Below are positions 35,468 through 51,453 of a DNA stretch of 64,000 nt, piece after piece; position 1 is the first letter of the stretch, and each line of letters starts with the position of its first letter. The stretch is from Eubacteriales bacterium. GTDB taxonomy: Bacteria; Bacillota; Clostridia; Lachnospirales; Lachnospiraceae. The notes beneath the pieces were generated by a model. The model worked only from the letters and a program-made list of their open reading frames with translations. It had not been told where the DNA came from and did not search any database. The stretch lies in the NCBI GenBank assembly GCA_030539395.1, contig JAUNSC010000008.1, forward strand, positions 31,025 through 95,024. Direction: 5' to 3'. A program made the translations under genes and the position numbers.

Positions 35468-37573
35468 TCAGGATACCTGTGATAAATATTTATTAAAAAA
35501 CTTTTTCAGATGTACAGATAATGCCTTCCTTATGGCTTCCTTATCTCCTGTCAGGACAGTCTCTGTAAAAGAATAATCTTCAATCAGCACACTGCTGATA
35601 TATCCCAGAATTTCACTGTTGATCTTAACGTTCCCATCTACTGGCAGCAGCATAATAAAAACCACCTGAATTCCCTTAAAATAGGCATTCTCAAAAGGCT
35701 TCCCGCCCTCTGTCAGACACACATGAAAGCAGGGACGGATTACCCCTTTTGTTCTGGTATGAAGCAGGGCGAAACCAAACTCCGCAAAGATCTGAGATGC
35801 CATCTTCTCCCGCTTCATCAGATCATCCTGTATCATTTCTCCCTGATCCCGGTAAGGTGAAACCTCTTCTCCGATGACTTCCAAAAGTTCCTCAAAGGTA
35901 ATATGGCTGTCCACCCGGAACACATCCGCATATTTCAAAACTGCATTAATCTGCGCTGCCATCAGATTGATTTCTTCCAGTTCTCTTGAAAAACCGTTTT
36001 CTTCTTTGTGTTTATCCGGAGTACGCTCATACTGATAAACCATTCTGCGCACTTCTTCCATATCCTGCTCACTCAAAAGGGGATTCACAAAAATAACCGG
36101 CACCTCCTCAAGTTCCAGCGGGATGCTGGACACAAAAAAATCTGTTTTTCCGGCAATGTACGGTGTAATATCCTTTTTCCCATAAGGTGTAATCTCCGTT
36201 CTGCCCCTGAATGCTTTTTCCAGCTTTGTCATCATGAGCCTGGAAATGCCGATCCCGCTGGAACAGACCACTCCCATCCGTACCTGACGGATATTCTCGT
36301 TTCTTCCCTCAAGACGTACCATTGCCGCTCCGAAATGCACAGTCAGAAACCCCGTCTCCGTCTCCGGCACGGGCCTTCCCAGACATTTCTCCAGAACCTG
36401 CGCCACACGGATGCATTTTTCGAAAATCTCCGGGTAATCCTTCTTTATACTTTCCAGCATGGGATTCGCAATCTGCATATCATACATGATCCGGATAAAA
36501 GTGGGCTGAAGATGCGCCAGCAGCCCCTGTATAAATTCCTCATCCTGTTTCAGAAGAAATGCATTTTGCTCATCAAAGACATCAATCATTTCATTGACAA
36601 GCTGCAGCAGCTCCCTGTTTTCCATCTCTACTGTCTTCTGGTCGCTCCACTGTATCTTCTCATGCTTGGCGCCCTTAATATGAAGACAAATATAAGAAAT
36701 TTCCACCGGAGGAATCTCAATCTCAAATTCCTCCTCCAGTTCTTTCACGATCCTTCCTGCCAGAGCATAGTCTTCATCCATCTCCATCGTCTCGGGCAGA
36801 CCGGTATCCGCTTCAAGAATTTCATTTTTCAGCATACGGTTAATAGCTATGGTAATATGTATGACAAGTCCCATATATGCATTTTCTGTCAGATCCATGA
36901 CACGGTCATCCGCCAGCCCCATAATGCAGTTAATCACTCTTTTTAAAATATCATCATTAAGAATCTGACCGATATTACTCTGCTGCAATCCATCCCTTGC
37001 CCCTGTAAAACTCTCGTCATTTTCATATGCTTCCTGCAAAAGCTTTGTATCAATATTTTCATTAATAAAGGTACGGATAGCCTTTCGGTAGCTTCGCTCA
37101 CTGCCCTCAATGGAGACTCCGCTCCCCGGCTTCCGGACAATATTCAGACCGTATCGGTTCAGCCATTCTTCCACAGCCTCCAGGTCGGTACTGATGGTAG
37201 CTTCACTGACCTTAAACTTACTGCTGTAATAAAACAGCTTCTTCAGGCCCTTATCTTTTAATATCTCCAGAATCAGCCTTTTTCTTCTTTCCTCCCGGTT
37301 GCTGACGTCATAAGAATCCCCGCTGCTGATTTCCTCTCTCAGCCTGTTCTTCTCGTCCTCACTGCCCTCCAGCCAGACTCCCACTCCGGTTTTTGACATA
37401 AACTGAATATCATAGCCTTTCAAAGCAGCATTCATATATTCCAATTCCCTTTGTACTGTCCGTTTGCTGACTCCCACCTGCTTTGCCAGATTTTGTACGG
37501 ACATGGTCTGGTTCTCATTCAGCATGATATTTAAAATCTGCCTGATTCTCGGTGTCACTTCCATCCTTCTCAC
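35468..37573 (-). CDS. BglG/MtlR-type PRD transcriptional regulator with PTS domains
   Basis: A 701-residue activator. In order: two N-terminal helix-turn-helix segments (about residues 8-60 and 95-155; M-S-V-Q-N-L-A-K-Q-V-G-V-S-K-R-T-V-Q-R-E), two PRD domains (about 200-410), a IIB-like domain (about 420-510, V-V-C-S-S-G-I-G-I-S-R-L-M with the Cys) and a IIA-like domain at the C-terminus (about 555-695, L-L-H-T-R with the His). Phosphorylation by HPr and by the IIB/IIA proteins tunes such regulators. The two identically built boxes upstream of the PTS promoters are its likely targets. It starts with GTG overlapping the stop of the first IICB gene. Confidence 0.9.
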   Translation of the reverse strand: MRRMEVTPRIRQILNIMLNENQTMSVQNLAKQVGVSKRTVQRELEYMNAALKGYDIQFMSKTGVGVWLEGSEDEKNRLREEISSGDSYDVSNREERRKRLILEILKDKGLKKLFYYSSKFKVSEATISTDLEAVEEWLNRYGLNIVRKPGSGVSIEGSERSYRKAIRTFINENIDTKLLQEAYENDESFTGARDGLQQSNIGQILNDDILKRVINCIMGLADDRVMDLTENAYMGLVIHITIAINRMLKNEILEADTGLPETMEMDEDYALAGRIVKELEEEFEIEIPPVEISYICLHIKGAKHEKIQWSDQKTVEMENRELLQLVNEMIDVFDEQNAFLLKQDEEFIQGLLAHLQPTFIRIMYDMQIANPMLESIKKDYPEIFEKCIRVAQVLEKCLGRPVPETETGFLTVHFGAAMVRLEGRNENIRQVRMGVVCSSGIGISRLMMTKLEKAFRGRTEITPYGKKDITPYIAGKTDFFVSSIPLELEEVPVIFVNPLLSEQDMEEVRRMVYQYERTPDKHKEENGFSRELEEINLMAAQINAVLKYADVFRVDSHITFEELLEVIGEEVSPYRDQGEMIQDDLMKREKMASQIFAEFGFALLHTRTKGVIRPCFHVCLTEGGKPFENAYFKGIQVVFIMLLPVDGNVKINSEILGYISSVLIEDYSFTETVLTGDKEAIRKALSVHLKKFFNKYLSQVS

Positions 37574-38961
37574 CCATTTCTTTCCTGAATCACTGTGAGC
37601 AGTTTTTCAAACTCTGCTCCTCCCATAAGGCTTTCCACCGGACAGACTTCCGTTTGGCCGATTCCGCCTGGCAGAAGATTCAGGAAATCCTTCTGACAGA
37701 CAATCAAATCCAGATCCTCCGGTATCCGGTCGCAGGCATAGGCTTCCACCTGAATTCCTTCTATTCGGTTCTGGGCCAGCTTCCTTCTGAACTGAGCTGC
37801 TCCCATGGCACTGGAACCTACGCCCGCATCACAGACAAATCCGATTTTTTGTATCTTCACCATTATATTACCCTCTTCCCGTTCCGGTATACTTTCCGTC
37901 TTCATTGGCTGTGGTCTCTCAGATTCCGGCATGAGTTCCTTCTCAGTTCTTCTCCGGATTCTTTTCTGAATTCTAAGAACCAGCATACTGCCTGCAAAAG
38001 AAATGACCGCCGACAATACGATTCCCAGTGCCGCTTTTCCCCACGCACCTTTCCCTGCCATCAAAAAAATCGTGATTACACTTCCCGGTGACACCGGTGC
38101 CTGCAATCCGCATCCCATTCTCGCAAAACATTCCGTTCCCGCTGCTCCCGCTGCCATCAGGGGAATCAGCAGCCACAGATTGGAGATTACTTCAGGAAAA
38201 TAAACTTCATGCAATCCGCCTGCTCCCTGTGCTGCCATCGCCGCTGTATACTCTCCCCTTTTTTCCCTGGCCATACAATATAATGCCAGAAGCAGCCCAA
38301 ATCCCGGTCCGGGATTAGTCTCCACAAGAAACAGTACCGACTGTCCCTCCTGCATGAGCTGATTCATTCCCATGGGTACTAAAATCCCGTGATTCACAAT
38401 ATTATTCAAAAACAGAACCTTGGAAGGCTCCACAATTATGCTCAGCGCTCCCAGCATTTTATGTATGACCAGTGCATTGATGCCCCGGGTGAGTGCCCCG
38501 GAAACAATCCTAAGTCCCGGTGCTATGGCATAATAACCTGCTGCCGCCAGAACACATCCGAGCATCCCTGTCAGAAGGTTACCCGCCAGCATCTGCATAC
38601 CTGAACCTGCTCTCTTTTTCAAAGGCTCTCCCGCGTATTTCCAACACAGCCCTGCCGCCGGTGCAGCCAGCATCCCGGCCAGGATACCTGCGGACTCATT
38701 AGCTGATACGCATCCGGCCGTCATCAGCACTGCAAGAATCCCACCTGTTTGAATTCCCCATTTTATTCCGCCCGTGTAAGCAATACAGACCGGCAGAAGA
38801 TATTTATAAACAAGCTGAGAAATGGCATACATATCCTCATTCGGAAACCATCCGTTTTCCTGAAAGATAACAGACAGCAACCCGACAAAAATAAATATGC
38901 CAATATTGTCCATCATAATGCTGCTGTAAAATTTCCCTGTCTTTCGTAAAGCTTTCCCCAT
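37570..38961 (-). CDS. PTS mannitol-type IICB transporter, divergent paralogue
   Basis: A 463-residue membrane permease with a C-terminal IIB domain. About eight helices (residues 14-330) hold the IIC domain with F-L-N-N-I-V-N-H-G-I-L-V-P-M-G-M near 190, N-P-G-P-G-F-G near 230 and G-G-L-H-E-V-Y-F-P near 260. The IIB domain begins after a charged linker and carries the phosphorylated Cys in F-V-C-D-A-G-V-G-S-S-A-M-G near 375. ATG 38961 aligns exactly with the start of the paralogue encoded upstream; an ATG at 38988 has no ribosome site. Compared with that paralogue the V-M-P-N-I-G segment reads M-M-D-N-I-G, and the helices are Ala/Gly-rich, so the ligand may differ. Confidence 0.88.
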   Translation of the reverse strand: MGKALRKTGKFYSSIMMDNIGIFIFVGLLSVIFQENGWFPNEDMYAISQLVYKYLLPVCIAYTGGIKWGIQTGGILAVLMTAGCVSANESAGILAGMLAAPAAGLCWKYAGEPLKKRAGSGMQMLAGNLLTGMLGCVLAAAGYYAIAPGLRIVSGALTRGINALVIHKMLGALSIIVEPSKVLFLNNIVNHGILVPMGMNQLMQEGQSVLFLVETNPGPGFGLLLALYCMAREKRGEYTAAMAAQGAGGLHEVYFPEVISNLWLLIPLMAAGAAGTECFARMGCGLQAPVSPGSVITIFLMAGKGAWGKAALGIVLSAVISFAGSMLVLRIQKRIRRRTEKELMPESERPQPMKTESIPEREEGNIMVKIQKIGFVCDAGVGSSAMGAAQFRRKLAQNRIEGIQVEAYACDRIPEDLDLIVCQKDFLNLLPGGIGQTEVCPVESLMGGAEFEKLLTVIQERNG

Positions 38962-38996
38962 AGATTCGTTCTTCCAATCCCTTATCATGCGTTTCA

Positions 38997-39056
38997 GGCA
39001 CGCAACTTATTTTTACTGCACAATCTGCCACTTTACAGTAAAAACTTTTGCGTGCC
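38997..39056 (-). repeat. Long imperfect hairpin between the two IICB genes
   Basis: GGCACGCAA pairs with TTGCGTGCC, and inside it TTTTACTG pairs with CAGTAAAA, giving a stem of about 17 pairs with an internal bulge and a 17-base loop. No T-tract follows on the minus strand, so it is not a standard terminator. It ends nine bases before the unused ATG at 38988 and about 35 bases before the chosen start. Confidence 0.65.
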
Positions 39057-39146
39057 CTGTCTTTTACCATGATAATATCATTTTTTTTCACTGCCTGCAA
39101 GCATGGCAAAATCTATATTTTATCAACACCGGCGCATAAAACACGG

Positions 39147-40529
39147 TTATCTGCCATTCTTTAAATCTTCCACCAGTTCATCATACTGGGGTGCTGCCAG
39201 GAAATTGGTAATCAGAATCAGCCTTGCTTCAGGATTACTGTGGGCTGCCCGTTCTCCCAGCTCCTGATGAGTAACTACCACCTGCACATCCTTCGGAATT
39301 GAAGAAACCGGTGTATGAATTACTTCAATTCCTGTAATTCCTGCTGCTGCCAGCTTCTTCTTCAAAACCGTTGCACCCATGGCACTGGAACCCATACCGG
39401 CATCACATGCAAATGCAATTTTGTTAACCGCCCCCGCCTTCGCAGCAGTGCTTTCTTCCTGAAGCCCTTTTGCCTTTTTTTTCATGCTGTCTTTCTTCTG
39501 CTGTGCTTCTTCCAGATTGGTGTCTTTGCCCATAAATTTCAAAATTGGCACTGCTATTACAAATGCTACCGCTGTGGAAACCAGAACCCCCAGGATCAAT
39601 CCTGCATAGCTGTGCCGCTCTGCCATCATCATGATTGCCAGAATACTTCCCGGTGATGCCGGGGAAGTAAGTCCCACCCCCATCATATCAAAGACAAAGA
39701 TACCGCTGGCTCCGCCTGCTATAGTTGCCAGAAGCAAAAGGGGATTCATCAAAATGTACGGGAAGAAAATTTCATGAATTCCGCCCAGAAAATGGATAAT
39801 TGCCGCTCCCGGTGCAGAGCTTTTCGCACTGCCTTTTCCTGCAATACAGTATGCCAGAAGAATTCCAAGCCCCGGTCCCGGATTAGCCTCCAGCAGGAAG
39901 AATACGGATTTTCCAAGTTCTTCTACCTGTTTCATTCCCATGGGTGACAGGATGCCGTGGTTCAGTGCATTATTAAGGAACAATACCTTGGCCGGCTCAA
40001 TAAATAAGCTGGTCAAAGGAAGGAGGCCATGTTTCACGAAGAATCCCACACCTGCCTCCATGCAGCCGTTCAGTGCACTTACCAGAGGTGTAATGCCTTT
40101 CAAACCAATTACTGCCAGCACAGCTCCGATAATGCCGATGGAGAAGTTGTTAATTAACATCTCAAATCCGGCTTTTACTTTGTTTTCAATCAGTTTATCA
40201 AATTTCTTAATCACCCATGCTGCCAGAGGACCCATAATCATGGCCCCCAGAAACATCGGATCATCTGAACCTACAATGACCCCCATAGTTGCAATGGTAC
40301 CCATAACACCGCCACGTACGCCTGCAACCACATGACCGCCTGTATAAGCAATCAAAAGCGGCAGAAGCATATGGGACATGGGATCAACCAGCTGTGCAAT
40401 CGACTCATTAGGAAACCACCCGGTTGGAATAAATAATGCGGCAATCAATCCCCACGCAATAAATGCTCCGATATTCGGCATTACCATTCCGCTTAAAAAT
40501 CTTCCAAAAAGCTGAACTTTTTCTTTCAT
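39147..40529 (-). CDS. mtlA: PTS mannitol-type IICB transporter
   Basis: A 460-residue mannitol-type permease. The IIC domain (about residues 10-335, eight or so helices) begins with F-G-R-F-L-S-G-M-V-M-P-N-I-G-A-F-I-A-W-G and has the MtlA motifs N-N-A-L-N-H-G-I-L-S-P-M-G near 190, E-A-N-P-G-P-G-L-G near 220 and G-G-I-H-E-I-F-F-P-Y near 250. After a Lys/Glu linker the IIB domain has F-A-C-D-A-G-M-G-S-S-A-M-G with the phosphorylated Cys near 375. IIA is separate (34838). Start ATG 40529 with AAGAGGTG eight bases upstream; a GTG three codons earlier lies within the ribosome site. Mannitol is the likely substrate from family similarity. Confidence 0.9.
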   Translation of the reverse strand: MKEKVQLFGRFLSGMVMPNIGAFIAWGLIAALFIPTGWFPNESIAQLVDPMSHMLLPLLIAYTGGHVVAGVRGGVMGTIATMGVIVGSDDPMFLGAMIMGPLAAWVIKKFDKLIENKVKAGFEMLINNFSIGIIGAVLAVIGLKGITPLVSALNGCMEAGVGFFVKHGLLPLTSLFIEPAKVLFLNNALNHGILSPMGMKQVEELGKSVFFLLEANPGPGLGILLAYCIAGKGSAKSSAPGAAIIHFLGGIHEIFFPYILMNPLLLLATIAGGASGIFVFDMMGVGLTSPASPGSILAIMMMAERHSYAGLILGVLVSTAVAFVIAVPILKFMGKDTNLEEAQQKKDSMKKKAKGLQEESTAAKAGAVNKIAFACDAGMGSSAMGATVLKKKLAAAGITGIEVIHTPVSSIPKDVQVVVTHQELGERAAHSNPEARLILITNFLAAPQYDELVEDLKNGR

Positions 40530-40600
40530 TGATTTCACACCTCTTCTTCTTTTTCTCTTTTAAGGTATGATTGGCCAATCAATCTCTGTTTGATGATTTT

Positions 40601-40694: not shown

Positions 40695-41564
40695 TCATCT
40701 GATGTTCCGCATGATTTTCCGCATGATTATAATAGCTGTCATAAAAGACAATACCCCATATCCGACTGCGGAATAAAAATCCTTCATATATATTTCCACA
40801 GGTTTTTGTTTTTCCGTCAGCATCAATAAAAGAAAAGATTCCTTCTCCCGTTCCAGCGCTTCTGACCAGAAATCAAAATCAGACCACTTTGTGGGAGTGA
40901 GATCCGCAGACAGCTCAAACTTCATGCAAGCCATATTCGCAATCCACGCCAAAATATCCTGCCGCACAAATTTTCCTGTCAGCCCATGCCGGGACATAAA
41001 ATCCTGCCGTATGTCTTCATATGTCATGCCCTTGTCCATATAAACTGTCAGATTTGTAAATATTTCGGAACTGTCATCTGCCTCATAAAGTATCGTATCT
41101 GATGCATCATACAAAATGCCCCGGACGACTTTTGCTTTTTCTCCGATATGGACTATTTGTCCCGAAATATTCGTACTGCCAAAAAGCTCATACGCTGTTT
41201 TTTCATCTATCAGGCAGCCATTCCTGTCCGTGTCATCAAGCCATGCAGTTCCCCGAAGAAGCAGATCCGATCTGCCGCAGATTACAATAAGAGATACTGT
41301 CCTGCTTCTTTGCAGATCTTTGTTTTCTACCGATATTTCATTTTTCTGCTCCCAGGCTGTAAAACTTTCCGGAATGTCCTGCCCGGTTTCCTGTTCCTGT
41401 ATCTGACGTACCTTTTCCAGCGTCAGCGGACTGCTTTCCATAAGAATCATCGCTGCCCGTTCACAGGCCTTCAGCCGGTTGGCACAGGATACTGCTGAAA
41501 AATACGAAGCTGCCATAATAAACAGGCACAGCGCCATTTGTGCAATCCTCATATATTTTCGCAT
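40695..41564 (-). CDS. Membrane protein with MacB-like periplasmic core domain, no FtsX block
   Basis: A 289-residue protein with one N-terminal helix (about residues 7-27) and one C-terminal helix (about 267-284). The extracellular part between them resembles the MacB periplasmic core: a segment ending R-G-T-A-W-L-D-D-T-D-R-N-G-C-L-I-D-E-K-T-A-Y-E-L-F-G near residues 105-130, then G-Q-I-V-H-I-G-E-K-A-K-V-V-R-G-I-L. In MacB/FtsX permeases such a domain is followed by three more helices; here there is only one. No ABC ATPase is nearby. It starts five bases before the stop of the HlyD-like gene region ends and is the last gene of the operon. The assignment is structural only. Confidence 0.55.
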   Translation of the reverse strand: MRKYMRIAQMALCLFIMAASYFSAVSCANRLKACERAAMILMESSPLTLEKVRQIQEQETGQDIPESFTAWEQKNEISVENKDLQRSRTVSLIVICGRSDLLLRGTAWLDDTDRNGCLIDEKTAYELFGSTNISGQIVHIGEKAKVVRGILYDASDTILYEADDSSEIFTNLTVYMDKGMTYEDIRQDFMSRHGLTGKFVRQDILAWIANMACMKFELSADLTPTKWSDFDFWSEALEREKESFLLLMLTEKQKPVEIYMKDFYSAVGYGVLSFMTAIIIMRKIMRNIR

Positions 41565-41569
41565 ATACT

Positions 41570-43597
41570 CTATTCTTCCTTTATTCTTATACGGCTGCCG
41601 TCAGAAATCATTTTATCGGAAGAAACAATGACATTCTGATCACTTCCCAGGTTCCCCTGCTGCAGCGCTGCATTTGTCTCATTTTTGTCCAATACCGTCA
41701 CATCCACGCGGCGTGCCGTCAGTTCCGTTCCCAAAACAGAACTGCTTTCCTCCATCACATAAACAAAATATTTACCATTTTCCTCATAAAGCGCCTGAAT
41801 CGGAATACAGCACTCATAGGCATCAGACGTACGGGTTGCTTCCATCGTGGCCGATACTCCAGCTTCCAGTGAATCTGCCGGAAGCTGGACCGTCACATCC
41901 AGAAGTTCCTTATCCTCCTCGTTTATCCGAACGGTATCCACGGTTAACTCCTCCAGAGTCTGACTGTTTTTGCTGTTTGTCTTTACTTTCACTTCATCTC
42001 CCTTTGCAATATATTTTTCCTGCTCTTTTGAGACCTGTACCACCAGTTTGTTTCCGGCTGCAGTATCCGACAACAGAATTGCCGTGCCATCCGGAGTTTT
42101 TTCTCCTGTAATGAGATTAACTTTTGTGATCATTGCATCTATCGGTGCTGTCACCTTTCCATTTTGATCCATCAGACGCTCCAGCTTTTCAAGCTTTAAT
42201 TCCTCCTGTTCTCTTGTAATGGCATCAATTTCTCCGGTACTGTCCGTTCCCTGAGGCGCATTGGCATCTTCAACAGCCCTGCCTGCTGTCCTCAGACTAT
42301 CGTTTGCCGCTGTCACCGCATCTTCATATGCCTGCTGTTTTACGCGGATCTCTTCTTTGATCTGCTGTTTCATCTCTTCTGCGCTTGTCTGCTCTCCTGC
42401 CGCCTTTTTCTGCTGATAAGACACAAGTGCTGCATCCGCCGCTTCTTTTTCCTGCTCTTTAGCTTTTATCTGTTCTTCCGCCTCATCCAGAAGAGTCTGA
42501 TTTTCCTGGCGGATACGCTGTTCCAGAAGCCAAAGGTCTGCCGTTCCTTCTGTTTCTTCTGATTCAATCACCTGAGGTTCATCTCCGATAATAAATTCAT
42601 CATTTCCATTATTCACATCTGCAGACGGCTCTTTCTCCGGTGCTTCTGTCTGCGTCTCAGCAGATACTTCTGATTGTACTTTATCAGATTCCTCTGTATC
42701 TGATGATTCAGCCGGTATCTCTGAGTTCGGCACATCCGGCGGAATTTCCACAGGCAGTTCTTCCGGAGTTTCATCAAAAGTCAATTCCTCCGGCATATCA
42801 GGGACAGCCGGTTCGTTTACAGAGCTTTCAGAAAACTCCGGTATCGTCCCGGGCACCGCTTCTGATGATACCATTTCCTGCGCCGACATATGAACTTCCC
42901 ATTCCACGGACTTTACGCTGGCAGTATCCGCCATACTTTTTGCTTCCTCTAAAGCCTTTTGTACGGCCGCATCAATCGCTTCTTCAAGTTCTTCTTTATA
43001 TTCTACCGCTTCTTCGTATTCTTTCTGCTTTTGTTCGCAGGTCTGTTTCAACACCTCTTCTACCGGATCTGTCCCTGTACCTGAACCCTCATTCTGTTCC
43101 AGAGACTTCAGTTTCTTCTTCGCGCTGTTAAGTTCTGCTGCGGCTCTGCCAACTGACGTATTTCCTTTTCCCGCCGCCACATTATAGTCCTCCACTGCAC
43201 GGTTTTGGCTTAAGGCATCTTTATAAGCTTTTGCATCACGATCGCTTTCCTTATCCTGCGACGTAAGATCCGCCTTTTTCATCTCCTGCTTCTGATTTAA
43301 AATCTGTTCCTTCAGGCTCTCAAGATCAATCTCAAAAAGTACATCGCCTTTCTCAACCTGCTGTCCCTCTTCCACATAAATAGTCTTTACTGTCTGTCCC
43401 GCCAGTGTCGATACAGCCTGTTCACGGTTCTGTACCACCTTCCCGCTTCCGGTTACCTGATGAGGGATCTTGCCTCTTTCCGCTTTTTTTACGGTCACTT
43501 TTGCAATGGTCATGCTGTCTGCTGCTCTGGACAAAAAAGTGAACATCAGCATAAGTGCCAGAAATCCTGCAAAAAATCCCATAATTTTTCGTTTCAT
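41570..43597 (-). CDS. HlyD/MacA-type membrane fusion (adaptor) protein with acidic insert
   Basis: A 675-residue adaptor, much longer than the usual 350-450. A membrane anchor (about residues 5-25) is followed by the first half of a lipoyl domain (V-S-T-L-A-G-Q-T-V-K-T-I-Y-V-E-E-G-Q-Q-V-E-K-G-D-V-L). A first coiled-coil arm (about 95-235) and a Glu/Pro/Ser-rich acidic stretch of about 110 residues (about 245-355) come next, then a second coiled-coil arm (to about 465), the other half of the lipoyl domain (V-T-A-P-I-D-A-M-I-T-K-V near 485) and beta-barrel domains. The start is ATG 43597 with TGGAGGAA upstream. It sits between sugar-type ABC permeases and a MacB-core-like protein. Confidence 0.82.
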   Translation of the reverse strand: MKRKIMGFFAGFLALMLMFTFLSRAADSMTIAKVTVKKAERGKIPHQVTGSGKVVQNREQAVSTLAGQTVKTIYVEEGQQVEKGDVLFEIDLESLKEQILNQKQEMKKADLTSQDKESDRDAKAYKDALSQNRAVEDYNVAAGKGNTSVGRAAAELNSAKKKLKSLEQNEGSGTGTDPVEEVLKQTCEQKQKEYEEAVEYKEELEEAIDAAVQKALEEAKSMADTASVKSVEWEVHMSAQEMVSSEAVPGTIPEFSESSVNEPAVPDMPEELTFDETPEELPVEIPPDVPNSEIPAESSDTEESDKVQSEVSAETQTEAPEKEPSADVNNGNDEFIIGDEPQVIESEETEGTADLWLLEQRIRQENQTLLDEAEEQIKAKEQEKEAADAALVSYQQKKAAGEQTSAEEMKQQIKEEIRVKQQAYEDAVTAANDSLRTAGRAVEDANAPQGTDSTGEIDAITREQEELKLEKLERLMDQNGKVTAPIDAMITKVNLITGEKTPDGTAILLSDTAAGNKLVVQVSKEQEKYIAKGDEVKVKTNSKNSQTLEELTVDTVRINEEDKELLDVTVQLPADSLEAGVSATMEATRTSDAYECCIPIQALYEENGKYFVYVMEESSSVLGTELTARRVDVTVLDKNETNAALQQGNLGSDQNVIVSSDKMISDGSRIRIKEE

Positions 43598-43638
43598 TTT
43601 TTCTTCCTCCATTTATACCAGCCGCATAACCAGACGGC

Positions 43639-44493
43639 TTATTCCTTTACAGCCGCCGCTGCGATCCCCTGCTCCAGATAATCCTGGCCCAAAAGAAATA
43701 CAAAAACTGCGGGGATCAGCGTCACTACTGAACTTACGAAAGCAATCCCCGCTTTTTCCAGTCCGATATTGGGTAAAAAAAGAGACAGAGGCCAAAGCGT
43801 CTTGTCTTTCAAAAAAGTAAGGGGCTGTTCAATCAGGTTCCAATATTCCAGAAAATTTAGCACCATCGCCGAAACAATACCTCCCGCACCAAGGGGTATT
43901 CCAATATGTAAAAATATCTGCAGCGCTCCGGCGCCGTCAAGCTTTGCTGACTCAATAATTGCCCCGGGAATCCCACGGAAAAAGCGGTACATGATAAAAA
44001 CCGGAAAGGTTGAAAACACAGCCGGCAGGATAATTCCCAAATGACTGTCCAGAAGATGCATCCGGTCAAGTATCAGATAATCCGACAGCATCCGGACCTG
44101 AAAGGGCATCATCATCAAAATAATATATAACGTATAAACCGCTTTCCGAAAAGGAAATTCAAACCGGGCAAATCCCCAGGCAGCCGGAATACCGATCAGG
44201 AGCTGTCCTGCAAGTATCCCCGCAGTCAATTTCACAGAATTCCAAAACATCACAAAAAATTGCGGTGAATCCAGCAGCAATTCCACATAATTCTGCAATG
44301 TAGGAAACAGCGGCATAAATCTCCAGGAGACAAAACCTTCGCTCCCTTTCATGACCGGGCCCAGATTATCTGTCAGTTCTCCCACATCCATCAGCGCTCC
44401 CGTTGCCAGAAAAATTACGGGATAGCAGCAGATGACTGCCAATATTATAAGAGGTATCAGCAACAGATACCGCATTTGAACTGTCTTTCTCAT
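43639..44493 (-). CDS. Carbohydrate ABC transporter permease (MalG/LacG type)
   Basis: A 284-residue inner-membrane permease with six helices of the binding-protein-dependent family. The ATPase-coupling EAA loop is present as E-S-A-K-L-D-G-A-G-A-L-Q-I-F-L-H-I-G-I-P near residue 190. Some 75 residues between helix 1 and the permease core are extracellular. It pairs with the MalF-type permease encoded just upstream (25 bases). No ATPase gene is in the operon; Firmicutes often share one MsmX-type ATPase between several such importers. Confidence 0.9.
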   Translation of the reverse strand: MRKTVQMRYLLLIPLIILAVICCYPVIFLATGALMDVGELTDNLGPVMKGSEGFVSWRFMPLFPTLQNYVELLLDSPQFFVMFWNSVKLTAGILAGQLLIGIPAAWGFARFEFPFRKAVYTLYIILMMMPFQVRMLSDYLILDRMHLLDSHLGIILPAVFSTFPVFIMYRFFRGIPGAIIESAKLDGAGALQIFLHIGIPLGAGGIVSAMVLNFLEYWNLIEQPLTFLKDKTLWPLSLFLPNIGLEKAGIAFVSSVVTLIPAVFVFLLGQDYLEQGIAAAAVKE

Positions 44494-44518
44494 TGATGCA
44501 CCCCCTTTTTGTCATCCG

Positions 44519-45391
44519 CTATTCTTTTTCCCATACACGCTGCAATAACAATACAAGCATTAGAATCACAACTGCATTTACCACTGCCCCTGCCGCCATC
44601 TTATCCAGTGACAGTTCACGGAACCAGTTATTAAACAGGTGCTGCATCATATAAATACTGCTGTGGGGATAGTCGCCTGCTACCAGATATGCTTCTCTGA
44701 AAACTTTAAAAGAATTTAAAAATGAAAGTACCGCGATGGTATACAAAGAGGGCAGTAAATTTGGCAGAGTAATGCTGATAAAGCACCTCCACTCTCCCGC
44801 TCCGTCTACCCTCGCCGCCTCATAAATATCACCCGATATGCCGGCCAGCCCTGCCAGCCATAAAATCACATCATATCCCAGGTTTTTCCATATGTAACTG
44901 AATACCAGAACCCCAAAAGCGTATTCTGAATTCATCCAGTCAACAGCCCGCATGCCTGCCAGTGACAGAATTCCATTTAACATTCCCTTTACATGAAATA
45001 AAAGCTTCCACAAAAGGACTACAGATGCCACGGGAATTGCCATCGGCATCAGATACATGCTTTTCAAAATGCTTCCCATTTTTTTTTGCCCCTGCAGAAG
45101 CACTGCTGCCGCCAGCGAACAGAATATCAGCATCGGAATGCAAATACCCGTGAAGCGGAATGTATTATATGCTGCCTGCCGAAAAGCGGTGTTTGAAAAC
45201 ACTGTCCGGAAGTTCTTCAATCCCACAAATTTTCCGCTCATCACTTCCGTAAAAGAACGGCGTATCACGTCCAAAAACGGTATGAAAATAAATACCAGTA
45301 CGCCTGCCAGGCTGGGAAGGATAAAAAGAAATCCCTCCCACTTCCGGCATTGCCCGGAACCTCTGCTCCTCTTTGCAGATATTCCCTTCAT
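44519..45391 (-). CDS. Carbohydrate ABC transporter permease (MalF/UgpA type)
   Basis: A 290-residue permease with six helices. It begins with F-L-F-I-L-P-S-L-A-G-V-L-V-F near residue 20 and R-R-S-F-T-E, both typical of UgpA/LacF proteins. The EAA loop reads E-A-A-R-V-D-G-A-G-E-W-R-C-F-I-S-I-T-L-P near residue 190. It follows the large solute-binding protein gene by 13 bases and forms a heterodimer with the next permease. Confidence 0.9.
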   Translation of the reverse strand: MKGISAKRSRGSGQCRKWEGFLFILPSLAGVLVFIFIPFLDVIRRSFTEVMSGKFVGLKNFRTVFSNTAFRQAAYNTFRFTGICIPMLIFCSLAAAVLLQGQKKMGSILKSMYLMPMAIPVASVVLLWKLLFHVKGMLNGILSLAGMRAVDWMNSEYAFGVLVFSYIWKNLGYDVILWLAGLAGISGDIYEAARVDGAGEWRCFISITLPNLLPSLYTIAVLSFLNSFKVFREAYLVAGDYPHSSIYMMQHLFNNWFRELSLDKMAAGAVVNAVVILMLVLLLQRVWEKE

Positions 45392-45404
45392 AAAATGTCA
45401 CCGC

Positions 45405-47654
45405 CTATTCAGCCAGGTACAAACTCATTTTCTGATTTATGGTACTGACTGCTTCCTCTACAGAGATTTCTCCTGCGACACACTTTCCGGCCTGTTCCAG
45501 TATCAGTTCCTCCATCACCGCATCTGTCAGAGACGGTGTGTCAAGAGTTTCCACCATTGACATGAATTTCTCCTTTTCTTCTTCTGAAGGTCCATAAGTG
45601 TCAAACATAATATCCACCCTGTTTCCCTCTTCATCTATTGTAGACCAGCCTGAGCTTCCAAGCCCTACTCCGGCCTGAGGAATTTCTTCTTCCATAGCTT
45701 TTTTATTAACTGGAAGACCTCCGCCCTGATTAGAACTCTGCGGCACTTCCGACAGCAGGAATTTTACAAATTTTTCCGCGCCTTCTGTCTGTGTACTTTT
45801 ACTGGAAATACCTGCCACGGTGGAAGGAACAAAAACATTTTGTCCCGTATAGGGAGCAAGTATATAATCCAGGTTTTCCTGATCATTCAGCGTTGCAGCA
45901 TCACCCAGAGAGTTACCGCTGCTTAAGTTTATCTCATCAAGTTTACATTGGCCTGCAAGGAAATTATAGCTTCCTGTTACCGTTGTCAAATCGTAACCAT
46001 AATCATCCGTGCTTCCCATATAGATATATCTGTATTCTTCTTCTGACTCATCATACTGATTTAATTCAAAGATTTCTTTTATCTGTGTGATAAAATCTTT
46101 TACCGCCTCGCTGTTAAATTCACCGTCCTCTGTTACCATGGCCGGTGAACAGGCAGTGTAGAACTCTCTTAAAAACCAGTAAATATTGCCGGCGCTCACG
46201 ATCATGCTGATCGCTGTGTCCTCCTGACGCAGCTGCTGCGCCGCATCTGCCAGAGATGCAAGATCCGTTATTTTTTCCAGAATGGAAGCTTCTCCCTGAA
46301 GTACAGGCATCTTAAAGCGGGTAGGTATTGCATAAATGCTCTCATCCCGGGCATATGTACCTGCGATATTCTCATATAACCCTTCTGATTGTACAATTTC
46401 CCCGTAAATATCCCGCAGATCCTTAAGCACACCCTTTTCTATGTAAGAATCCACCGGCATTCCATCCAGAATTAAAATATCCGGCCCATTGCCCGCCATA
46501 ATTTCCGTGTTCAATGTGCGCAGGGCATCTGAAGCTGTCACTGCATCTTCCCCGGAAATACCAATTTCCAGGTTCACATAATATTCCGGATTCTGATTCT
46601 GAAACATGGAAGCGGCCTGCTGTACATCTGCATTCTCGTTCAGGGAATAGATATGCAGTTCCTTATCCGGTACAGTCGGCACATCGGCTTCATACGTATA
46701 ACAGAAAATTTTAAATTCTCCGCTGTCACTGGCAAACACGAGAAGTGATCCATCCTCCGTCACCTGCATTTTCTGCAGCGAAACACTTGGTTTTGCAAGA
46801 GAATTAAGCTTTCCGTCCACCAGCTGTTCCACAACACTGCCGCCCTGCATATATCGGAAAATCCCTTTGCTGTTACAATAATATACTTCTCCTTCCTCTG
46901 TTCCCTTTGCCATAACCAGCGGGTAAGAAGCCACACTGTATATCATAAAATTATCTTTATCCGCATCAATTTCCTTTTTTATGACACTCTCTGTTTTTTC
47001 CTCACCAGTCTGATAATCATAGACAAACACTTCTTCTGTGCCAAAAACATACACTTCATTTCCAGCCTGCTGCACAAACTGTACCGGATTTTCATTTTCA
47101 TTATAGTTACAGATCTGTTCTCCGGTCTTTGTATCAAAGAGTGCTGACTGATCTCCCACTCCACGCACCAGAAGTTTCTCTTCTTCCGTGAAAAATACCT
47201 GCCATGCATAGCTGTCTAATTCTTCCAGCTCCAGTTCCGTCGGCTGTCCATCTTTTGAAAAGATTACGCTTATATCATCTGTAAAGTCTGAATCCTTTGC
47301 AAAATCACAAAATACCGTTCCCTCTGGCGAAATTGCACCCGAACATAAATATTTATCTTCATATTTTTCAGGTATGGCAAATGCCTCTTCCCATGTGGAA
47401 CCATTATCTGAAGATTTCCACACCGATGTTCCATCCGCTGTCATTGCCAGAATACTCAGAGAGCCGTCATCAAGTACCCTTCCGTTGTGTAATATCTGAA
47501 TACCTTCCGGCAGTGCAATCTCACTTTCCATGTAGCGGCCCATAGCCGTGTCACCGGATTCCGCCGCCGCTGTCATTCCTCCGGTGTTTATGCCTGTTAC
47601 TGCAATTGCCGCTGCCATCACTGCAGCTGCTGTTCCCCTTATACTGCGTTTCAT
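45405..47654 (-). CDS. Extracellular solute-binding protein with large N-terminal propeller-like region
   Basis: A 749-residue secreted protein, about 300 residues longer than usual. A signal peptide (about residues 1-32, ending M-T-A-A-A-E-S-G) lacks a lipobox Cys. Residues 35-335 look like repeated beta blades: S-S-D-N-G-S-T-W-E-E-A-F resembles a sialidase Asp box, and short segments of V-F-V-Y-D-Y, Y-Y-C-N-S-K-G-I and L-L-V-F-A-S-D recur about every 45 residues. Residues 340-749 are a family 1 solute-binding domain (E-L-H-I-Y-S-L-N-E-N-A-D ... N-Q-N-P-E-Y-Y-V; M-A-G-N-G-P-D-I-L-I-L-D; L-L-P/F-V-P-S-T-V-A-G-I-S). It is the first gene of the operon. A repeat shared with the response-regulator promoter lies upstream. 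The ligand is unknown. Confidence 0.82.
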   Translation of the reverse strand: MKRSIRGTAAAVMAAAIAVTGINTGGMTAAAESGDTAMGRYMESEIALPEGIQILHNGRVLDDGSLSILAMTADGTSVWKSSDNGSTWEEAFAIPEKYEDKYLCSGAISPEGTVFCDFAKDSDFTDDISVIFSKDGQPTELELEELDSYAWQVFFTEEEKLLVRGVGDQSALFDTKTGEQICNYNENENPVQFVQQAGNEVYVFGTEEVFVYDYQTGEEKTESVIKKEIDADKDNFMIYSVASYPLVMAKGTEEGEVYYCNSKGIFRYMQGGSVVEQLVDGKLNSLAKPSVSLQKMQVTEDGSLLVFASDSGEFKIFCYTYEADVPTVPDKELHIYSLNENADVQQAASMFQNQNPEYYVNLEIGISGEDAVTASDALRTLNTEIMAGNGPDILILDGMPVDSYIEKGVLKDLRDIYGEIVQSEGLYENIAGTYARDESIYAIPTRFKMPVLQGEASILEKITDLASLADAAQQLRQEDTAISMIVSAGNIYWFLREFYTACSPAMVTEDGEFNSEAVKDFITQIKEIFELNQYDESEEEYRYIYMGSTDDYGYDLTTVTGSYNFLAGQCKLDEINLSSGNSLGDAATLNDQENLDYILAPYTGQNVFVPSTVAGISSKSTQTEGAEKFVKFLLSEVPQSSNQGGGLPVNKKAMEEEIPQAGVGLGSSGWSTIDEEGNRVDIMFDTYGPSEEEKEKFMSMVETLDTPSLTDAVMEELILEQAGKCVAGEISVEEAVSTINQKMSLYLAE

Positions 47655-47713
47655 ACTTTAACCTCCAATTCTGTTGTCAACTACCTGTACACGATATAAA
47701 GTAACACAGGAAT

Positions 47714-47730
47714 CTCTAAATATCCTCTAA
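47714..47730 (-). promoter_or_regulatory. Direct repeat (likely response-regulator site) of the solute-binding operon promoter
   Basis: On the minus strand TTAGAG occurs twice, 11 bases apart (47725-47730 and 47714-47719). The repeat and the following bases ATTCCTGTG match the promoter of the response-regulator gene at 49393-49418. A -10-like TACTTT (47698-47703), overlapping TTATAT, lies ten bases downstream, the same distance as TATAAT in the other promoter. No -35 consensus is present, as expected for an activated promoter. Confidence 0.8.
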
Positions 47731-47744
47731 GATTCCGAAAAAAT

Positions 47745-47783
47745 AAAGGAAAGAAAAGGTTAATGTACTCCTTTTCTTTCCTT
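47745..47783 (-). terminator. Terminator of the DASS transporter gene
   Basis: AAAGGAAAGAAAAGG pairs with CCTTTTCTTTCCTT around a ten-base loop; on the minus strand TTTATTTTTT follows. It lies 36 bases after the transporter stop and upstream of the regulated operon promoter. Confidence 0.82.
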
Positions 47784-47819
47784 CTTTATTTATCTGTGAT
47801 TTATTTGTCTGCCATTCAC

Positions 47820-49241
47820 TTAAACTGTACTAAATGCCGGCCAGAACCGCAGCATCACATAACATATCGCTGTCATTAAGATTATGACCATAACGGTCAT
47901 TTTCACACCTTCTTTAAACATATACTTCGGCTGCAGGCCATAACCCACCGGAATTGCACGAATTGATGTCGGGAGCATATACGAAAGGTTCACTCCAACA
48001 GAGGCAATATAAACAAACGGCACCGGGTTTAATCCTATTCCCTGAATAATGGAAATAACAATCGGCATTGCCACTGCGGCTGTGGCTGTATTTGACGTAA
48101 CATCAGATAAAAGCAATGTTACTGTAATAATCACAAATACAGTGGTTAATCCCCCTGTGAGCCCTAACCCGGCAACCATGCTGCCTATTGCATCCGCTGC
48201 TCCTGATTGGTTGATCAGAGTTCCGGCTGCAAGCCCGCCTGCAAATACGTAGATTAATTCCCATATGATTTTTGTCTGAACATTTCCCCAGACCATTAAT
48301 CTCTTTCCGTCTTTTCTTGTTATAAGGAAAGAAAGAATTGCACAAATAATAAATGCATATGCCGGTTTCAATCCGGGCAAATATGCCTGATAGAGCTGCC
48401 TTGTAAAAGAGAGTACGGTAGCAATCAAAAATAAGATCAAAGAACATTTTTCTTCGAAACTCATCCTGGGCATTTTCCGGTATTCTTCCTGAAAATATTC
48501 CTTCGAGCCTCCAAGACTTTCATCTTTTTTTACATCTCTAAGCATAAACATAATATTGCTGACAACCAGCACTATCATAATCGGAAAAAACCGCACTACC
48601 CAGGAAGCATACATATACTCTTCCCCTGTAAGCTGCTGAAGATAGTCTACTGTAACCAGATTCATGGCTCCGCCAAGAGGTGATGCCAAACCACCGATAC
48701 CTGCGGCATAAGCAATGTTCAGAAGAAGCTTCGAACCTACTTTACTGTGAGAGATATCTCCCTCTCCGACATATTTCAGCATCGACACCGCAATCGGCGT
48801 AACCGTGGCACAAACAACTGAATTTGGCAGTATCGATGATAACAGCGTTGAAAGCATAAACCAGAAAACAAGCTGCGTTCTTAAGTTTTCACCGACCATT
48901 CCCAGAAAACCGGCTGCAATTCGTTTATCCAATCCCGTTTCTTCCCATGATACTGTCAAAATGGAAGCACCTAAAAGAAGCAATATCGTTTCAGACGCAT
49001 AATTGGCAATAACTGCAGACATATCACACATCTGGATAACAGCGTTTACCGCTATCGGCAAAAATGCTGTTACTGCATAATCAACCGGTGCCGTAACCCA
49101 CCAGAATGCCATCCATGCCACCGTTCCTATTGCTGCTCTGCTTCCAACCGTAGAAAACACCGATTCAGGAAGTATGAAGCAGCATAATAAAAAAAGTACC
49201 GGTCCAATACCAAGAAAAATTACCCGATTTTTGTTTTTCAT
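47820..49241 (-). CDS. DASS/SLC13-family anion symporter (CitT-like)
   Basis: A 473-residue membrane protein with about 12 helices. It has the family's two substrate loops: S-S-I-L-P-N-S-V-V-C-A-T-V-T-P-I-A near residue 137 (SNT-like) and S-D-V-T-S-N-T-A-T-A-A-V-A-M-P-I near 370 with the classical S-N-T. These proteins take up di- or tricarboxylates or sulfate, usually with sodium. The substrate cannot be fixed. It lies between the response-regulator-controlled operon and the two-component genes, but has its own terminator, and the shared repeat is not in its promoter orientation. Confidence 0.88.
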   Translation of the reverse strand: MKNKNRVIFLGIGPVLFLLCCFILPESVFSTVGSRAAIGTVAWMAFWWVTAPVDYAVTAFLPIAVNAVIQMCDMSAVIANYASETILLLLGASILTVSWEETGLDKRIAAGFLGMVGENLRTQLVFWFMLSTLLSSILPNSVVCATVTPIAVSMLKYVGEGDISHSKVGSKLLLNIAYAAGIGGLASPLGGAMNLVTVDYLQQLTGEEYMYASWVVRFFPIMIVLVVSNIMFMLRDVKKDESLGGSKEYFQEEYRKMPRMSFEEKCSLILFLIATVLSFTRQLYQAYLPGLKPAYAFIICAILSFLITRKDGKRLMVWGNVQTKIIWELIYVFAGGLAAGTLINQSGAADAIGSMVAGLGLTGGLTTVFVIITVTLLLSDVTSNTATAAVAMPIVISIIQGIGLNPVPFVYIASVGVNLSYMLPTSIRAIPVGYGLQPKYMFKEGVKMTVMVIILMTAICYVMLRFWPAFSTV

Positions 49242-49392
49242 TTCTTAATCCTCTTAATACTTTTATAATACTGTCATCTGTATACAAACTGCATTCTATC
49301 AAAAATTATCCATTCTTTCAACCTTTTTCATATCTGCTCTTTCCTTTTCATAGTGACTGTGATATCTGCGCGGGATCTCCGGATTTTAGCTT

Positions 49393-49425
49393 TTAGAGAA
49401 TCCTTAGAGATTTCTGTGATATAAT
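49393..49425 (+). promoter_or_regulatory. Auto-regulated promoter of the two-component system
   Basis: TTAGAG occurs at 49393-49398 and 49404-49409 (11-base period) and TATAAT at 49420-49425. The repeat covers the -35 position, the layout used by OmpR-type activators. The same repeat, downstream bases (ATTYCTGTG) and spacing occur before the solute-binding operon. Confidence 0.82.
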
Positions 49426-49490
49426 ACCATTATCCGGCAGGTTACTGTCATTTTAAGCCTGCTCTCACTTTAATATCAGGAGATATTCAA

Positions 49491-50171
49491 ATGCGTATTT
49501 TAATGATTGAGGATGACCGAAAACTATGTGCTTCAATAAAATTTCAGCTTGAAAAACAAGGATTTTCTGTAGATGTATGCCATGACGGTGAAGAGGGACT
49601 TTTTCTGATAAGAGAGAATGCTCACGACTGTGTCCTTCTGGATCGTATGCTGCCGGGAATGGATGGCATAAGCGTTCTGAAAACTGCCCGAAACAGCGGT
49701 GTTTGTACTCCTGTGATCATGGTCACTGCCCTGGGGGAATTATCTGATCGCGTCCAGGGACTGGATACCGGGGCTGATGACTATATTGTGAAACCTTTTG
49801 CTTTTGAAGAGTTGATGGCGCGCATCCGCTCTGCCCTTCGCCGCCCGGTTATTTATCGAAATGAACATCTCTGTACTTTTGGAGATGTCTGCTATGATTC
49901 CATGCAGAAAACTTTAAAAGGGCATGATTCCTCCTGCTCTCTTTCCAAAAGAGAAGGGGAACTTATGGAATTATTTTTGAGAAATCCAAATCAGACTCTG
50001 CCAAGATCTTTGATCCTCGGCCGCGTATGGGGACCTGATGCCGAAATTGAAGACGGCAATCTGGATAATTATATCTATTTTCTCCGCAGACGCCTGAAAA
50101 GTTTAAAAAGCCGCCTTGTCATTAAATCTGTCCGTGGTGTGGGCTATCGTCTGGAGGTAATAAATGCTTAA
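49491..50171 (+). CDS. OmpR-family response regulator
   Basis: A 226-residue regulator. The receiver domain (about residues 1-118) has the acidic pair E-D-D near residue 7, the phosphorylated Asp in V-L-L-D-R-M-L-P-G-M-D-G near 52, T-A near 80 and Lys in I-V-K-P-F near 102. The C-terminal winged helix (about 125-222) has L-S-K-R-E-G-E-L-M-E-L-F-L-R-N-P and the R-R-R-L-K recognition and R-G-V-G-Y-R-L end. The start has CAGGAGATATTCAA upstream. It overlaps the sensor kinase by eight bases. Confidence 0.95.
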   Translation: MRILMIEDDRKLCASIKFQLEKQGFSVDVCHDGEEGLFLIRENAHDCVLLDRMLPGMDGISVLKTARNSGVCTPVIMVTALGELSDRVQGLDTGADDYIVKPFAFEELMARIRSALRRPVIYRNEHLCTFGDVCYDSMQKTLKGHDSSCSLSKREGELMELFLRNPNQTLPRSLILGRVWGPDAEIEDGNLDNYIYFLRRRLKSLKSRLVIKSVRGVGYRLEVINA

Positions 50172-51453
50172 AAAAGTACATTTACGCTTAACATTCTTCT
50201 GCGCTCTTGTGACGGCTGCCATACTTCTTGTGATGACTGTTTTTTGCCTTATCATTTCTGAGCGTGGAATCAAAAATAAGAATTATTCTGATTTCCAAAA
50301 TAATACCAGCAGTATCCTTACTTACATAGACAGCCAGTCTACCCTCTCTCACACATGGCTTTCCCAAATGGAAAGCCGTTATCATCTGGTAATTGATATA
50401 CGGGACGGTGTCTCTCCTTTACTTTACGGAAATCTGCATGCCCACGACATTTATGCTGATGTACTCTCTCTTGCCAGAGAAACTGCTGCAAATGATTATC
50501 ATCTGAGTCTTAAAACATCAGGAGGTAATCGCGTTCTGGTTTCTCGGGAAACTTTTCGCCTTCGTGATGACGAAAATAATGGTTATTTTGCAACCGTTGC
50601 TCTGCTGCCCAAAGGAAATGGATATCTTGATATTGCCATCCTCTCCTCAGACAGTATTTCCGGCACACAGATTATCAGACAACGTATTCTCTTTGGCATC
50701 GGCGCCCTGGTTTCTTTCTTCATATTAACTGCTTTTGCCTGGATCTTTACAGGAAGAATGCTGCAGCCTGTTGAAGAAAGCAGAAAACGACAGACTGCCT
50801 TCATAGCCTCTGCTTCACATGAACTTCGTTCTCCGCTTACTGTGATACTTTCCTCGCTGTCTGCCGCCCGCTCTGCTTCTGCCGGGGAACAGCCGCGCTT
50901 TTTTAATGCCATGGAATCTGAAGGTAAGCGTATGGCGAATCTGATCAATGACATGCTGATGCTGGCAAACTCCGATAACCACACATGGCATATGACTCCT
51001 GCCGCGACTGAACCTGACACTCTGCTTTTAGAAACTTACGAAAAATACGAGTCAGGAGCCAGACAACGAAACCTCCATCTGCAAATTCATTTACCGGATG
51101 ATACCGTCCCCATATGTATTTTTGACAAGGAAAGAATTTCTCAAATGCTCTCTATTTTGATTGAAAATGCCTTTTCTTATACACCTGCAGGCGGAACTGT
51201 ACTTCTCAGCCTGAAGGTGCTGCCAAAATATCTGGCGCTTACCGTTTCTGATAACGGGCCCGGCATTCCTGATGATCAGAAGGAAAAAATCTTCGAGCGC
51301 TTTTACCGCGCAGATGAGTCCCATCAGGACAGAGACCATTTTGGTCTGGGGCTTTGTATTGCAAAAGAAATTTCAGATCTGCATAAAGGAAAAATCCAGG
51401 TGATGGATACACCCGGCGGAGGTGCAACCTTTACAGTGATGCTGCCAAGATAA
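50164..51453 (+). CDS. Sensor histidine kinase
   Basis: A 429-residue two-helix membrane kinase. Helices at about residues 9-30 and 175-195 enclose an extracellular sensor of about 140 residues. The HisKA domain has the phosphorylated His in S-A-S-H-E-L-R-S-P-L-T-V near residue 218. The ATPase domain has the N box (L-I-E-N-A-F-S-Y-T near 338), D-N-G-P-G-I-P (G1) near 363, F-E-R-F-Y-R-A-D (F box) near 380 and G-L-G-L-C-I-A-K (G2) near 397. There is no HAMP domain to speak of. The signal is unknown; the partner regulator likely controls the solute-binding/HlyD operon. Confidence 0.94.
   Translation: MLKKVHLRLTFFCALVTAAILLVMTVFCLIISERGIKNKNYSDFQNNTSSILTYIDSQSTLSHTWLSQMESRYHLVIDIRDGVSPLLYGNLHAHDIYADVLSLARETAANDYHLSLKTSGGNRVLVSRETFRLRDDENNGYFATVALLPKGNGYLDIAILSSDSISGTQIIRQRILFGIGALVSFFILTAFAWIFTGRMLQPVEESRKRQTAFIASASHELRSPLTVILSSLSAARSASAGEQPRFFNAMESEGKRMANLINDMLMLANSDNHTWHMTPAATEPDTLLLETYEKYESGARQRNLHLQIHLPDDTVPICIFDKERISQMLSILIENAFSYTPAGGTVLLSLKVLPKYLALTVSDNGPGIPDDQKEKIFERFYRADESHQDRDHFGLGLCIAKEISDLHKGKIQVMDTPGGGATFTVMLPR

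Follow-up and report, generated by a model that had tools for sequence, protein, structure and literature searches.

A direct repeat shared by a two-component system and a hybrid importer/adaptor operon in a Lachnospiraceae genome

What is the role of an operon that joins the parts of a sugar importer to those of an export pump, and how is it controlled? This question is raised by a locus of a Lachnospiraceae bacterium (assembly GCA_030539395.1, contig JAUNSC010000008.1), analysed here within a window, which is the whole 64,000-nucleotide stretch taken from that contig. Five minus-strand genes encode a solute-binding protein (SBP), two permeases (PermA and PermB), an adaptor and a MacB-core-like protein, and two plus-strand genes encode a response regulator and a sensor histidine kinase; gaps are short within the operon and within the two-component pair. 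The same direct repeat stands before the operon and before the regulator gene. The reading that we favour, with confidence just above even, is that the locus encodes an ATP-binding cassette (ABC) importer powered by an MsmX-type ATPase and fitted with a MacA/MacB-like extracytoplasmic accessory, under autoregulated sensing. The relevant features are listed below.

40695..41564, minus strand: MacB-core-like protein, 289 amino acids (aa); membrane helix, YknZ/MacB extracytoplasmic core, PTKWSDFDFW motif, membrane helix
41570..43612, minus strand: HlyD/MacA-type adaptor, 680 aa; long acidic stretch at about residues 175-405
43639..44493, minus strand: PermB, MalG/UgpE-type permease; EAA loop at residues 181-200
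44519..45391, minus strand: PermA, MalF/UgpA-type permease; EAA loop at residues 191-210
45405..47654, minus strand: SBP; Pfam SBP_bac_1, closest Protein Data Bank (PDB) entry CbpC, propeller matches; model with a predicted local distance difference test score (pLDDT) of 84.9
47698..47706, minus strand: extended -10 element TGT-TACTTT, hexamer 47698-47703; TGnTAnnnT at the same offset in 30/55 sites
47714..47730, minus strand: direct repeat TTAGAG-N5-TTAGAG, exact and kept in relatives; putative regulator box of the operon promoter
49393..49409, plus strand: direct repeat TTAGAG-N5-TTAGAG, exact and kept in relatives; putative regulator box of the promoter of the two-component pair
49417..49425, plus strand: extended -10 element TGA-TATAAT, hexamer 49420-49425, ten bases past the repeat; spacing conserved
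49491..50171, plus strand: OmpR/PhoB-type response regulator, 226 aa; Pfam Response_reg and Trans_reg_C
50164..51453, plus strand: sensor histidine kinase, 429 aa; Pfam HisKA and HATPase_c

An earlier note on this DNA had described the repeat before the regulator gene and before the SBP operon, in each case ten bases ahead of a -10 position and with no -35 consensus. Both copies are exact and lie at the places described, the second hexamer of each ends ten bases before its -10 hexamer, and a promoter consensus scan returned no -35/-10 pair that uses either of these two hexamers. The operon -10 hexamer (TACTTT) is poorer than that of the regulator gene (TATAAT), and both have TG-n in front. The note had proposed a genome-wide search; over the 3,373,990 bases (3.37 Mb) of the host genome, the repeat has two exact copies only, one at each of these promoters. 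With up to one mismatch there are 3 copies, compared with 35 of the backwards-read pattern that served as a control.

Conservation of the repeat was assessed in 59 related loci (L004-L062) found by search with the SBP, which comprise 2,094,192 strand-bases, with preset regions upstream of SBP, regulator and PermA genes accounting for 50,880. Nineteen of the 21 exact copies fall in the preset regions; the remaining two lie beside the transporter cassette, one on the regulator side of L007 and the other before a small lipoprotein open reading frame (ORF) between regulator and SBP in L013. With up to one mismatch there are 59 copies, of which 45 are in preset regions, 11 more are at or beside cassette genes (8 of these precede the kinase gene, and the L012 copy falls within an over-long SBP reading frame) and three are at non-cassette genes (L029, L036, L037). 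Altered spacings (N4, N6, N10) give no exact copy across the 59 loci, and the TGnTAnnnT pattern lies exactly seven bases downstream of the repeat at 30 of 55 sites, the window's two included. The backwards-pattern control is not clean in this sample: it has three exact matches, all in preset regions before PermA, which we attribute to TAGAGATT repeats belonging to the motif itself. When up to two mismatches are allowed, the real pattern has 118 copies overall and the backwards one 113, but in the preset regions the figures are 64 and 23. In Blautia-type loci (L006, L008-L012, L018, L024, L028), the SBP gene separates kinase from regulator; a repeat precedes the kinase gene thus detached in 6/9 of them (up to one mismatch) and a separate PermA unit in seven (up to two mismatches). 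In another locus (L137), PermA unit, regulator and SBP each carry a repeat, the PermA copy being exact.

The association extends to 200 family genomes scanned with a pattern of repeat plus extended -10 element drawn from the window and the 59 loci. At up to one mismatch, 44 promoter-pattern matches occur in 30 genomes, some of which may be of the same species as the 59 loci. The propeller part of the SBP is present in 37/200 of these genomes and in 24 of the 30 with the motif, compared with 5.6 expected (hypergeometric 2e-16, a rough guide only, since the genomes are related and not independent). All 13 genomes with exact promoter matches contain the SBP. Within 8 kb of a cassette SBP lie 15 of 16 exact matches, the exception being in G046, and 16 of 28 one-mismatch matches. 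Because the repeat is exact, unique to these two promoters in the genome and recurrent with the cassette in relatives, the operon is very likely controlled by the adjoining two-component system.

The earlier proposal that the repeat is bound by an OmpR-type regulator holds up as a probable site of the OmpR/PhoB-type regulator encoded here, because its exact spacing, with a fixed 11-bp phase, is kept with the cassette and before most leader genes; binding itself is a prediction from sequence. PhoB/PhoR-type systems likewise pair a receiver and winged-helix regulator with a direct repeat that replaces the -35 element, and PhoB boxes end ten bases before the -10; the window system differs in that its box is TTAGAG and in that the sites found are mostly at the transporter cassette itself. 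The recognition-helix stretch of the window regulator, GNLDNYIYFLR, is near-identical among cassette regulators, which carry GNLDNYI(Y/H)FLR or a sequence close to it (SNLDTYVHFVR, for example), whereas other regulators of the same loci differ. Among curated models, the regulator comes closest to PhoB and the kinase to RppB/PnpS, all with scores under the cut-off. Positive autoregulation combined with operon activation would be the natural reading: the histidine kinase would detect a cell-surface signal and phosphorylate the regulator, which would occupy the pair of TTAGAG half-sites, spaced by one helical turn, where a -35 element would otherwise be, and switch on both extended -10 promoters, that of the two-component genes and that of the operon. 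A different regulator (43-44% identical) occurs with the near-identical promoter sequence TTAGAGGATTTTTACAGACTTTT in three genomes (L085, L086, L091), and is perhaps part of a sister system with a related box.

Is the gene set itself a stable unit? The hybrid set of five genes beside a two-component pair, which the earlier note had suggested looking for elsewhere, does recur in other Lachnospiraceae among the 59 loci, and the usual order has regulator and kinase divergent to SBP-PermA-PermB-HlyD-MacB-like. Forty-two loci extend 5.5 kb or more downstream, and among these PermA was recognised in 40, PermB in 36, HlyD in 38 and the MacB-like gene in 30; the ORF choice in this tally overlooked PermA in L007 and PermB in L009, both of which are present. 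In 41 loci with at least 4 kb upstream, a regulator lies within the span counted in 33 and a kinase in 29, not all of them of the cassette type. The SBP is a fusion in which an N-terminal beta-propeller (about residues 38-325) precedes a family-1 solute-binding domain (about 330-749), and propeller SBPs are rare in an even draw across the phylum (3/398 genomes, host included). The window SBP has no lipobox cysteine; a lipobox-like cysteine, defined by a loose pattern, occurs in 57 of 59 long relatives. The first SBP copy of L006 likewise has no lipobox cysteine.

Family-1 SBP and two BPD_transp_1 permeases together are the components of an importer, and both window permeases retain the EAA loop that contacts the ATPase. 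In PermA, the loop residues are invariant or nearly so in an alignment of relatives, which was used in place of a strict EAA pattern that only 48/93 permease ORFs match. MsmX-powered import would be the likeliest transport mode, because both permeases keep this loop. The operon product would then be a type I ABC importer made of the propeller-fused SBP and MalF/MalG-type permeases, with a shared MsmX-type ATPase encoded elsewhere as its motor. The ligand is probably an oligosaccharide or glycoconjugate. Identity to the window protein is 26-45% among SBPs and 41-84% among PermA proteins; the faster divergence of the SBPs, together with the presence of two or three SBPs in some cassettes (L006, L007, L014, L049, L142), suggests that ligands vary between cassettes.

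The earlier note was correct that no ATPase gene occurs among the five operon genes. This is not odd in itself, because one multitask ATPase can serve several sugar importers of this sort, as described in PMC7658222, and the host genome has a stand-alone candidate. Two of its ATPase genes have a MalK-type TOBE domain: one (L134) adjoins two permease ORFs and a binding protein, and the other (L135) stands alone, the 16 kb read around it yielding no recognisable permease gene. The stand-alone ATPase matches PDB entry 7x0q (E 2.4e-169) and Bacillus subtilis MsmX (E 2.4e-142). Entry 7x0q is probably the stand-alone Clostridium thermocellum ATPase Clo1313_2554 described in PMC9601137, although the passages of that paper do not give the code. 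Of the 37 cassette genomes, 25 were searched for a close homologue of the stand-alone ATPase and 24 have one; the exception is 74% complete. The missing ATPase as a true oddity is ruled out by the presence of this MsmX-type gene in the genome and in cassette relatives. In L004-L062, a loose pattern, used because a stricter one detected fewer ATPase neighbours, showed the interval from SBP to MacB-like gene to be free of ABC ATPase ORFs; in L022, one lies past the MacB-like gene. MsmX-dependent type I sugar importers (MalFGK2-like) likewise have an SBP_bac_1 protein, MalF/MalG-type permeases with EAA loops and an ATPase encoded elsewhere; the adaptor, MacB-core protein and propeller fusion are extras of the window system.

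What, then, do these extras do? The MacB-like protein has the YknZ/MacB fold and two membrane helices, and has no ATPase domain. In MacB-type exporters, the permease has four helices and the MacB-type ATPase is either fused to it or encoded next to it; no such combination is found among the five operon genes. The best-conserved stretch of the aligned MacB-like proteins is PxKWSDFxxW (residues 224-233 of P0003 in alignment A1), which persists even in those without a MacB core (L034, L038, L043). A broken gene was considered and rejected, because the same short form occurs in four relatives (L016, L017, L020, L027) and is hence recurrent. The acidic stretch of the adaptor is very variable in length among relatives. 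Bacillus YknWXYZ and MacAB also have a MacA-type adaptor and a MacB-type extracytoplasmic core; the window system differs from them in its two-helix MacB-like protein, in having no operon ATPase gene and in being joined to a type I importer and binding protein. According to a passage of PMC4887032, the extracellular domain of YknZ binds the adaptor YknX, and because YknX and YknZ are a known binding pair, the window adaptor and MacB-like protein probably bind each other and would sit on the importer. As an extracytoplasmic accessory, this adaptor and motorless MacB-core protein may help to collect the ligand or to move it through the wall.

The earlier statement that no system with this set had been described stands only in part. 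C. thermocellum transporter C, the CbpC operon (Cthe_2125-2128 in a passage of PMC8303734), has parts of the same kinds: an SBP, PermA- and PermB-like permeases, an HlyD-type adaptor in two ORFs and a MacB_PCD protein, and no ABC ATPase ORF in the stretch read, as in the window operon. A CbpC fragment matched one genome (G922) at 100% over 382 residues, where the order is CbpC, a 283-aa unlabelled ORF, PermA-like, PermB-like, two adaptor-profile ORFs and a 473-aa MacB_PCD protein. CbpC (460 aa) is the closest solved structure to the window SBP by sequence and fold; unlike the window SBP, it has no propeller domain, and unlike in the window, no two-component pair was recognised alongside its operon. 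Near CbpC, a C. thermocellum-type locus (L159 6634-12281) also has an 89%-identical copy of its last 71 residues. The operon was published as a sugar transporter, and in the passages of PMC9601137 an 'acrA' gene is listed in the legend of the transporter cluster map; from sequence, we infer that this 'acrA' belongs to transporter C. This kind of system is thus already in view through CbpC, with its adaptor and MacB-like parts not explained in those passages. A search of the open-access literature found no paper treating this gene set by title and abstract; one paper lists a Ruminococcus gnavus SBP gene, which was not tied to the cassette.

Several results weigh against the account of regulated import with an accessory. 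Within the window, the repeat has 2 matches at up to two mismatches, compared with 5.3 in shuffles, so there is no general enrichment and the case rests on exactness, position and conservation. No promoter pattern at up to one mismatch occurs in 13 of the 37 SBP genomes, and seven Clostridium loci have no repeat before the SBP at up to two mismatches; regulators near these seven are of another type. No MacB-like gene was recognised in 12 of these 42 downstream-extended loci, eight of which do have HlyD. In L042 (15810-16769) and L050 (4829-5830), an ABC ATPase ORF follows HlyD at the place expected for the MacB-like gene. Some loci (L140, L047) have an SBP and two-component genes without adjoining cassette permeases, suggestive of a part in sensing or of permeases that also serve another cassette. 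No sugar-degrading gene was identified in the operons, with most neighbouring ORFs unclassified. Passages of PMC9601137 report no binding of CbpC to any sugar tested, a CbpC pocket obstructed by a loop, and normal growth of the operon knock-out on glucose, cellobiose and Avicel; this contradicts an earlier study, and earlier binding claims are cited in passages of PMC3492117 and PMC8303734.

The strongest rival, which we consider doubtful though still substantial, is that the transporter is mainly a sensor: ligand binding outside the cell would be relayed by the transporter or its accessory to the kinase, with transport secondary. Such sensing has precedents in PstSCAB for PhoR and BceAB for BceS. 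The PhoB- and RppB/PnpS-like matches of the two-component pair (below cut-offs), the same box on cassette and two-component pair, the loci in which an SBP and two-component genes occur without cassette permeases, and the lack of sugar binding or a growth phenotype for CbpC in the passages of PMC9601137 are all in keeping with this. EAA loops in both permeases and the good conservation of PermA (41-84% identity), in contrast, suggest active transport.

An improbable alternative is that two machines share one operon, with a sugar importer beside an adaptor and MacB-core pair that serves a different MacB-type exporter of the same cell. In MacAB/YknXZ pumps, adaptor and MacB core act as partners, the host genome has 8 other MacB_PCD matches, and some loci have the importer and HlyD but no MacB-like gene. 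All nine Blautia-type loci have, some kilobases upstream, an ABC ATPase ORF that precedes the kinase gene; a full MacB-type permease was checked in L010 (FtsX domain, next to the kinase) and read in L024, and HlyD-type genes occur in L011, L024 and L028. A separate exporter role retains some probability because these loci have an ABC ATPase, and a MacB-type permease where checked, near the kinase. Yet the same order of permeases, adaptor and MacB-like gene is found in loci labelled Lachnospiraceae, Clostridium and Oscillospiraceae and in the C. thermocellum-type operon, and the loose pattern places no ABC ATPase between SBP and MacB-like genes in L004-L062. The ATPase neighbours in L042, L050 and the nine Blautia-type loci slightly lowered our confidence in import, which was and remains a little above even, and slightly raised that in two machines from an already low level.

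It is very improbable that the repeat arose by chance or belongs to promoters in general, with the targets of the regulator lying elsewhere: at up to two mismatches the window has fewer matches than its shuffles, but both exact copies in the genome are here and the SBP accompanies the motif far beyond expectation, and a chance motif is rejected on genome-wide uniqueness and conservation in relatives.

Returning to import with an accessory, we tentatively propose, at less than even confidence, that the locus represents a distinct class of Gram-positive trans-wall ABC importer in which a MalF/MalG-type transporter carries a collar resembling MacA and, as docking subunit, a MacB-type protein without a motor. 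Importers and MacA/MacB-type pumps are usually seen as separate machines, and this conserved operon joins both. If the proposal is correct, the extracytoplasmic architecture of an exporter would serve to take up a ligand otherwise retained by the wall, or to sense it in a manner coupled to uptake. The locus provides a named, testable gene set with a predicted switch that is readable from DNA, its SBP being present in 37 of 200 sampled family genomes, and it could offer a fresh angle on the unexplained transporter C of C. thermocellum.

Two further features lie between the regulator gene and the operon.

47820..49241, minus strand: CitMHS/Na_sulph_symp-family (DASS-like) symporter with a promoter-like site of its own
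47745..47784, minus strand: AT-rich stem-loop with a U-run after it, probably the terminator of the symporter gene; folding energy -19.5 kcal/mol, z -4.0

A search of the L004-L062 ORFs at E 1e-3 yielded no relative of the symporter, which was not mentioned in the earlier account and is probably not part of the system. Because the terminator-like stem-loop separates its gene from the operon promoter, the operon probably has a transcript start of its own. Past the operon, also on the minus strand, follow a phosphotransferase system (PTS) EIIC-EIIB gene (39147-40538) and a similar-looking ORF after it (whole span 37570-40538), and a promoter-like TTGAAA-18-TATAAT at 40630-40601 stands before the PTS gene.

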